Assembly (NCBI GenBank): GCA_020352555.1
Contig: CP070680.1
Coordinates: 2,819,521-2,859,221 of the forward strand
DNA from: Caldifarciminota bacterium
GTDB lineage: Bacteria; Hydrothermota; Tepidihabitantia; Tepidihabitantales; Tepidihabitantaceae
Length of the DNA: 39,701 nucleotides
Reading direction: 5' to 3'
A program made the position numbers and the translations under genes. Positions 36,921 to 38,914 of the stretch are shown here, piece after piece. How positions within the stretch are numbered: the stretch's first letter is position 1; each line of letters opens with the position of its first letter. The notes under the pieces were generated by a model that was not told the DNA's origin, ran no database searches, and saw only the letters and a program-made list of their open reading frames with translations.

Positions 36921-36972
36921 GGTCATCCTGAGTGGAGCGCCCTCGGGGGCGCGGAATCGAAGGATCTCTCAG
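36921..36972 (+). repeat. CATCCTGAG...GAAGGATCTC-type dispersed element
   Basis: It opens GTCATCCTGAGTGG and ends TCGAAGGATCTCTCAG, matching a very widespread intergenic repeat known from many bacterial genomes (from memory). A short hairpin GCGCCC/GGGCGC lies in the middle. It runs into the stop codon of the tail remnant at 36969. Confidence 0.55.
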
Positions 36973-36991
36973 CGCTGTATGACCACCTTGC

Positions 36992-37026
36992 GGACCGCTG
37001 ACCGCACACCGCTTTCCGCTGTCCGC
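36992..37026 (+). repeat. 7-bp array, type NNNCCGC, inside the tail remnant
   Basis: Five heptamers (GGACCGC, TGACCGC, TTTCCGC and similar) encode the linker between GVYF and KVVIQR of the tail remnant. Confidence 0.75.
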
Positions 37027-37151
37027 GACGATGCGGAGCCTGCCGTCGGACGGCAGAAGTAGACTCCGGGCGCGATGTGTTGGATGTCATTGGGGCCGGG
37101 CCGCAGGGACATCACGACGCGGCCGGAAGCGTCCAGCAGCTTCGCTCCGCT

Positions 37152-37203
37152 CTGGAGTGCAATGTCTCCGACATTGCGCAACGACAGAGTCGTTGCACTC
37201 CAG
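37152..37203. repeat. Perfect three-way-junction palindrome
   Basis: Outer stem CTGGAGT (37152-37158) with ACTCCAG (37197-37203); hairpin 1 GCAATGTC-TCC-GACATTGC (37159-37177); hairpin 2 GCAACGAC-AGA-GTCGTTGC (37178-37196). All 46 stem bases pair and no base is unpaired at the junction. It lies in the linker of the tail remnant. Confidence 0.85.
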
Positions 37204-37320
37204 ACCAGCACATCTTGTACAATCGTCGGCTCCGGCATTGGGCTTGGGGTCCGGCTCGGTCCGACAGTTGTCAATGGTTGTCTGCCCGACAGGATGCGGT
37301 CCGGCATGCGACCGGCCAGG

Positions 37321-37620
37321 TGACTTGGGGAGCGTATCAGGAAGTGACTTGGAGAGCGGCGAGGGAAGTGACGAGGAGAATGCCTTGGAGAGCGTCCTAG
37401 GAAGTATCTCGGGAAGTGCCTCTGGGAACGTCTTGGGAAGTGTCCTGGACTGTGCCTCAGAAGATGTATCGAGGAGTGCCTGGGCAGATGCCTGGCAGAA
37501 TGGATTGGGAAGTGGCTGCAGGAATGGCGCAGGCTGTGGCTTCTGGAGTGACTTCAGGAGTGACTTGGAATGTAACTTCCAGAGTGACCTTCCCCATCAC
37601 CCTGGAAACCACCCAGGAAG
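37321..37620. repeat. 300-bp array of degenerate 12-bp units
   Basis: Twenty-five units in strict 12-base register without indels, approximate consensus TGACTTGGGAAG (last five units weaker). Positions 7-12 are purine-rich throughout. The plus strand is open in one frame (a four-residue GSxL-like repeat) until TGA 37630, but without homology or a supported start. The stretch 37204-37789 holds no gene I can support apart from the start of the tail remnant. Confidence 0.85.
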
Positions 37621-37789: not shown

Positions 37790-38914
37790 CTACCGGACGA
37801 TGACGACTCTCGTGACCGCGGGAGATTGCTCCCTCGCCCCTTGAGGGAGAGGGCCGGGGTGAGGGGTCGCCATGAAGTACACGCCAGGGGCGAGGCTGCC
37901 GAGGTCATTTTCACCAGGGTGCAGGTCGAGGACTTTGCGGCCGGTCGGGTCGAAGAGCGCGGGCTTGGGACACGATCCGAAATCCAGGGTGGGATTTCGG
38001 TCATGTCCCGCGCCGAGCCGGAGCGAGCCGCGGACGATGGTCGGGGTACACGCTGCCGGTCTCTTGGCGCGGCGCGGGGAGATTGTGGTGATGCCGACCG
38101 TACCGGACGTGTCGACAAAGGCTCCGAGTATGTCGAATCCTTCTTCGGCCAGCTCTGACCAGACGACAAAGAACCGTTCTCCGTCGTTCGCAATGTCAGC
38201 GCTACGCTGTACGGCCGGTGCAGCACTGACCGGGAAGCCGTTCGGGTCGAGCACGGTTCCGTCGGCCAGGATGAGCGCAGCGTAGATGTCAGGTTGCGCG
38301 GCCATGCCTTCCCAGACCGCGCAGTAGCGGTCGCCCAGGAAACTGACCCGAACGTTCACCAGGCCGTACGAGCTGCGGGCAACAAGGACCGGGACCGAGT
38401 CGAGCACCGTGCCGTCGGCGCTGATCCGGCGGAAGCAGAGGTCGGCACCCCTTGCGCCAGGAGTCTCGCCGGTCCAGAGCACGATGTAGTCGCTGCCGTC
38501 GCTTCCCACCACGACATTGTCCAGGCCGAGCGAGTCGGAACAAAGCTCGAATGCGGTCGTGTCGATCACCTCGCCTTCGGCCGAGACCCGGGTCGCCCGG
38601 ACCGTCATGCCGCGGAGCCGGTATTCGACCCAGGCAAGCAGGTAGCTGTCGCCATTGCTGCCCACCCCAACCATCCCCTGGTACCCGGTCGTGTCCGCGC
38701 AAGGCAGCTCGATTCCTTCCGGGTTCAAGACGGTACCGTCAGCGGTCACCTGGGTGTAGAACACGTGCTCGGGCGCGACCCGGCGGTCGTGCCAGGCCAC
38801 GAGATAGCGCTCGCCGTTGAACGCCAAGTCTGGGACAAGCTGGTCCTGCGTTTCGACGTTGACGTCGATGCTGTCGATGATGCTGCCGTCAGGCGCCACC
38901 CGGGCGCCTCTCAC
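37790..38914 (-). CDS. Secreted repeat protein with short sorting tail, 3' part of an interrupted gene
   Basis: A 374-residue frame without a signal peptide, starting at an internal Met (RGARVAPDGS). It consists of about five beta-propeller-like units of some 50 residues with the pattern DxxRxxxxxADGTVLDxxGxxL and (D/G)GxxYLVxWxD, as in secreted integrin-like or WD40-like FCB proteins. The end is a short tail: ALFDPTGRKVLDLHPGEND, LAPGVYFM, VTRVVIVR. The same frame upstream, past one TGA at 38927-38929, encodes a signal peptide and the first repeat. Two repeat elements interrupt the tail: a hairpin (37967-38009) and a dispersed element (37831-37866). Probably one gene of about 484 codons. Confidence 0.75.
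   Translation of the reverse strand: MRGARVAPDGSIIDSIDVNVETQDQLVPDLAFNGERYLVAWHDRRVAPEHVFYTQVTADGTVLNPEGIELPCADTTGYQGMVGVGSNGDSYLLAWVEYRLRGMTVRATRVSAEGEVIDTTAFELCSDSLGLDNVVVGSDGSDYIVLWTGETPGARGADLCFRRISADGTVLDSVPVLVARSSYGLVNVRVSFLGDRYCAVWEGMAAQPDIYAALILADGTVLDPNGFPVSAAPAVQRSADIANDGERFFVVWSELAEEGFDILGAFVDTSGTVGITTISPRRAKRPAACTPTIVRGSLRLGAGHDRNPTLDFGSCPKPALFDPTGRKVLDLHPGENDLGSLAPGVYFMATPHPGPLPQGAREQSPAVTRVVIVR
37831..37866 (+). repeat. Dispersed CCCTCACCCC/GGGGCGAGGG-type element inside the tail
   Basis: The minus strand encodes TPHPGPLPQGARE, a translation typical of a repeat very widespread in bacterial genomes (from memory). It opens the linker between GVYFM and VTRVVIVR without breaking the frame. 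Confidence 0.65.
37967..38009. repeat. Long hairpin in the tail linker
   Basis: GGGACA/TGTCCC outer stem and CCGAAATCC (37977-37985) with GGATTTCGG (37992-38000) inner stem. It occupies the linker between TIVRGSLRL and the ALFDPTGRK part, the same place as the three-way-junction element in the paralogue. Confidence 0.65.

Follow-up and report, generated by a model that had tools for sequence, protein, structure and literature searches.

Palindromes that lie in frame within protein-coding genes are already known as intragenic REPs and as Rickettsia palindromic elements (RPEs), RPE-4 and RPE-6 being classed as CGTC REPs (PMC3733652), so that an in-frame palindrome is not in itself new. GTAG- and CGTC-tagged REPs are small palindromes that occur as monomers or dimers, some of them in frame in scattered host genes (PMC3733652), and in REPINs and BIMEs two inverted REPs form a unit with a GT[AG]G tag at each outer foot and a long spacer between them (PMC3116915, PMC2817692, PMC6006769). 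RAYT genes bordered by such repeats constitute the REPtron arrangement (PMC2817692, PMC6006769). The element described here resembles REPINs and BIMEs in its paired, inverted and outwardly tagged units, the compensatory changes in its hairpins, its multi-copy and intergenic occurrence in relatives and a RAYT gene bordered by repeats, but differs in its tag, GGAG(TGC), in the 0–3 nt between its hairpins, which give a perfect three-way junction, and in being wholly intragenic in the genome of the window. It shares small size, monomeric and dimeric forms and in-frame copies with GTAG- and CGTC-tagged REPs, whereas all its tested copies in the window's genome lie in one duplicated C-terminal domain. 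Like RPEs, it is a palindrome in frame in protein genes, but it has another tag, its intragenic copies share a single site in a paralogous domain, and its intergenic relatives flank a RAYT gene. What is new is its tag, its spacer-less junction and the way in which it was amplified through a sorting domain.

The window is the whole 39,701-nt stretch of DNA that was analysed. At 37152–37203 it reads CTGGAGT-GCAATGTC-TCC-GACATTGC-GCAACGAC-AGA-GTCGTTGC-ACTCCAG, 52 bases that match exactly, with the following features:

37152–37203, no strand assigned: whole element, read as a REP doublet with a predicted perfect three-way junction (sequence, fold, repeat copies, compensatory changes)
37152–37158, plus strand: 5' side of the outer stem, CTGGAGT, with the GGAGT tag at 37154–37158 (sequence, fold, tag conservation)
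37159–37177, plus strand: predicted hairpin 1, GCAATGTC-TCC-GACATTGC (fold; compensatory changes in 6 of 8 pairs)
37178–37196, plus strand: predicted hairpin 2, GCAACGAC-AGA-GTCGTTGC (fold; compensatory changes in 7 of 8 pairs)
37197–37203, minus strand: 3' side of the outer stem, ACTCCAG, with the inverted second GGAGT tag at 37197–37201 (sequence, fold)
36972–37229, minus strand: host C-terminal sorting-type domain, PTIVQDVLVW...KVVIQR, with its stop at 36969–36971; the element encodes WSATTLSLRNVGDIALQ between the first two predicted strands

The predicted minimum-energy structure is a three-way junction of 7, 8 and 8 bp in which only loop bases are unpaired, and with a 20-nt flank at either end the element folds at −35.3 kcal/mol, compared to −21.3 kcal/mol for shuffled sequences (z −4.36; none of 200 shuffles equalled it). 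The first-pass annotation had described this Y-shaped palindrome, with its 7-bp outer stem, two 8-bp hairpins and 3-nt loops, from the letters of the window; its sequence proved exact and its fold agrees with prediction. Its placement in a protein linker with the frame intact was likewise borne out, the minus strand reading LVWSATTLSLRNVGDIALQS within the open frame of the C-terminal domain. The GCAA...TTGC ends that it pointed out on both hairpins are present, and belong to a conserved tag, TGGAGTGC...GCACTCCA. In Rfam scans covering the window and four related loci, nothing scored above the gathering threshold of any family, and a tRNA scan found no tRNA. Openness in all six frames was discarded as evidence: the window copy is open, but this holds for only 16 of 51 copies, and for 7.5% of random Ys of the same shape.

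In a 60-nt search, the single 3.26-Mb contig of the window's own genome yielded about 14 copies and one half copy. With a covariance model the copy number was similar, and the near reverse symmetry of the element made most copies score on both strands. Among 60 relatives searched at the DNA level, copies whose stem letters differ turned up in several further genera and families, and across the phylum the covariance model detected the element, with a patchy distribution, in 29 of 147 genomes. Among 37 distinct copies, 97.1% of pair cells were standard pairs and 15 of the 22 pairs had changed on both sides, compared to 4.5 in shuffles. As a partial hold-out we took copies from families outside the class, unused in building the model: the 14 distinct copies were 100% paired, a percentage biased upwards by their choice as high model scorers, and eight pairs had changed on both sides, with stems that were new and fully compensated (GCTGTGAC/GTCACAGC, GCAAAAAC/GTTTTTGC and GCATTAAC/GTTAATGC). 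The first-pass annotation had let its reading depend on a second copy with compensatory changes, and there are many copies and many such double-sided changes. The outer letters TGGAGTGC...GCACTCCA are almost invariant, with GGAG at the 5' foot in almost all aligned copies, and the stems vary with compensation; in these alignments the element appears as a sequence tag plus a structural hairpin. In many sister copies with complementary loops, the folding program favours one long rod. This alternative fold was rejected, with 81–82% of cells paired and seven or three double-changed pairs, no excess over shuffles, and the covariation supports the predicted Y rather than the rod. The 3-nt loops (alignment columns 16–18 with 37–39) are often reverse complements (TCC/GGA, TGC/GCA) and partly co-vary, pointing to a possible loop–loop contact or a trace of inverted-repeat origin. 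A match of a 21-nt pattern in a Hyphomicrobiaceae sequence (L053) comprised hairpin 1 only, in another gene, at 24.6 bits, and was taken as chance.

Variants of the element were also met. A 31-nt one-hairpin form (TGGAGTGC...GCACTCCA with a single hairpin; L219:1462–1492) and half elements are common, with many short matches of these types in G030, G036, G038 and G044. In G049, G052 and G054 (L102–L109, L116–L118, L122–L130), the Y is nested in a larger conserved repeat with about 45 nt of common flank per side, extra hairpins and GGAGTAG/CTACTCC ends. In an Anaerolineales genome, a copy whose second hairpin differs lies in the reading frame of a 4-alpha-glucanotransferase gene, where the solved relatives are shorter by about 11 residues; this genome also has a second, longer relative (L237:880–952) with an outer stem TGCGGAGT...ACTCCGCA and long hairpins.

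A linked Y1 or REP-type transposase, which the first-pass annotation had suggested looking for, is present in relatives, with element copies on both sides of its gene. A Y1_Tnp search of the relatives yielded many RAYT-like genes. In G030, an element ends 15 bp before the start of one of them (184 aa; L196:1665–2219) and more elements follow the gene, an arrangement similar to that in G036; the gene is flanked by the element on both sides, as a REPtron, in G030, G036 and G044, the homologue in the last being bordered by the one-hairpin form and a doublet. In G049 the repeats that border the homologue are doublets with an 8-nt linker; in G017, G011, G002 and G005 they are hairpins tagged with GGAGTGC or doublets with about 12 nt of spacer. 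The L196 protein matches Pfam Y1_Tnp and, with 109.5 bits (cut-off 80), NCBIfam REP_Tyr_transpos NF047646, and has an HUH-type histidine motif and a catalytic-tyrosine motif by alignment to 4er8, E. coli TnpA-REP, the only solved relative found. To this protein it aligns over residues 21–157, with YIYFNPVKHGY for YIYINPVKHGW, but its histidine motif reads NHYH where TnpA-REP has EHMH, and its cognate tag is different. By these sequence criteria, the linked protein is assigned as a RAYT (TnpA-REP). The RAYT protein is identical in L196 and L197 (G030 and G036), with neighbouring genes visibly more different, which suggests recent exchange or strong constraint. The window's own genome, in an assembly that is 89% complete and has masked stretches, yielded no close homologue of the G030 RAYT (best 21% identity), and four other RAYT-like genes there have no long hairpins nearby.

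None of the 19 copies in G030 and G036 lie in ORFs of at least 150 codons, where about half would be expected at random positions. Beside the RAYT gene, these two genomes differ by element segments, and one orthologous site carries the full element in G036, half of it in G030, G038 and G040, and none in G044. The comparisons recovered no transposition event, and a search for a clean empty site with exact ends found only half-elements and rearranged loci. Half elements coincide with altered neighbouring sequence, which suggests breakpoints at the junction.

We best read the element as a REP/REPIN in the wide sense, a RAYT-associated palindromic repeat presumably mobilised by the RAYT, because its copies are dispersed and show compensatory changes, its tag is nearly invariant, RAYT genes are bordered by it and its copies in G030 and G036 are intergenic. 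Against this stands the tag, GGAG: the GT[AG]G tetranucleotide of the GTAG superfamily was not found at the 5' foot, nor the CGTC of CGTC REPs, RPE-4 and RPE-6, the outer tag being TGGAGTGC. The mobile REP/Y-type repeat proposed at first sight is upheld by the copies, the compensatory changes and the RAYT bordered by the element in relatives. Two short palindromic hairpins, inverted, 0–3 nt apart and each tagged GGAGTGC at its outer foot, would together with the tags form the perfect three-way junction. The presumed mobiliser is the short RAYT (HUH/Y1 transposase) of some relatives, where the position of the gene is observed; by analogy with TnpA-REP, the enzyme would recognise the tag and hairpins in single-stranded form, then cut and rejoin the DNA.

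In the window's own genome, the 11 further copies that were tested all lie in long ORFs and share one orientation, frame and position: they occupy the loop that joins strands one and two of a C-terminal domain that is present about 150 times in this genome. TIGR04183 (T9SS type A sorting domain, cut-off 23) scored 23.7 bits in one element-free paralogue and 20.8, 17.4 and 14.7 bits, under the cut-off, in element-bearing ones; we describe the domain as T9SS-like. The loop that carries the element naturally varies in length among domains, and in a structure prediction (mean pLDDT 70.8) the inserted residues fall in a low-confidence stretch, at about 50, between two strands. In a tree built from 75 nt downstream, leaving out the element, the 11 element-bearing domains form one clade (support 99/97), and since the host domains group in this way, we infer a single insertion that then spread with the domain; the copies in this genome are apparently not independent insertions. 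The inserted copy would have landed in the loop of the sorting domain, read through without a stop and been tolerated there as a loop that is probably exposed; duplication or conversion of the domain, rather than fresh transposition, would then have carried it to about 14 genes. This reading as a whole, a REP doublet of a RAYT-linked family inserted once in a sorting-domain loop and multiplied with the domain, is in our judgement very probable. It adds a differently tagged, almost spacer-less REP doublet, patchy across its phylum and with matching RAYT genes in several relatives, and it outlines a route by which a selfish palindrome may become protein sequence, by entering a permissive loop of a duplicated export tag and being amplified with that tag.

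The identity of the copies at the DNA level provides a testable case for palindrome maintenance within coding sequence. Third codon positions of nine near-identical copies diverge by 1.4% in the element, 25–44% downstream and 41–60% upstream, stepping abruptly at both element ends (Fisher p 4e-4 for the number of variable third positions). The same 14 copies came back whether domains were sought by their flank or by the peptide, with no hidden decayed class, so this low divergence is not mainly a selection artefact. One old insertion alone is insufficient for near-identity amid such widely differing flanks; the alternatives are constraint on the DNA itself and some process by which the element is rewritten exactly. 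An active process with exact boundaries might keep the palindrome identical among paralogues, making it a homing palindrome in a protein domain, for example through hairpin-triggered cutting and copying from a sister gene or through a RAYT acting in trans, a proposal that we put forward as speculative and rather doubtful. That the element, still a REP, was inserted or rewritten many times at one site of the sorting-domain genes, by homing or exact replacement, would fit the contrast in third positions with its steps at both ends, and also the case of G005 and L021, where the domain that carries the element is of another subtype and the junction is slightly different. Such repeated arrival is nonetheless unlikely given the common orientation and frame of all copies, the single clade of host domains outside the element and the failure to find a close RAYT in this genome.

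Conservation that is greater in the DNA than in the protein, and the strong fold, would also be expected of a functional RNA element (an mRNA structure, attenuator or binding site) selected in its carrier genes. The RNA signal that the first-pass annotation had listed among its options does not fit as the primary nature of the element, which is nearly strand-symmetric, matches no Rfam family, adjoins a transposase gene and in relatives is mostly intergenic and patchy, and we consider this explanation very improbable. Short, non-coding and with inverted ends, the element could superficially pass for the end product of a DDE-transposon MITE instead of a REP, but no constant target duplication is visible in the flanks of the copies, the linked gene is a Y1/HUH RAYT and the internal hairpins co-vary, leaving this origin little credence. 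Although the decayed copies L021 and L083 retain a similar peptide, a palindrome arising as by-product of selection on the peptide WSATTPSLRNVGDIALQ in the domain can be dismissed almost entirely, as it is contradicted by intergenic copies, with the same DNA structure and other stem letters outside genes in other genomes, and by synonymous sites that are frozen as well.

Other repeats occur around the host domain. Just upstream of it, window positions 37340–37566 hold degenerate tandem repeats (a 36-nt unit and others), and since these read Ser/His/Arg/Pro-rich in frame, the window's copy of the domain may be part of a decayed or orphan gene. Another palindromic repeat, unrelated to the first, is intergenic at window positions 37825–37868 (CCCTCACCC..GCCCTCTCCC..CAAGGGGAGAGG) and has 13 copies in the genome; several genes carry it in frame within the last loop of this sorting domain (e.g. 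VITPSPLPSPPQGER; loci listed for this repeat are L015, L011, L010 and L050). About six of its 13 copies fall in or beside listed sorting domains, for which reason sorting-domain loops may be general landing pads for repeats. Another shared insert-like stretch, EGPRGQGSEGPS (GGTCCGAGGGGTCAAGGGTCCGAGG), is found in the last loop of many paralogues (L018, L036, L039, L045, L046, L048, L051 and L052).
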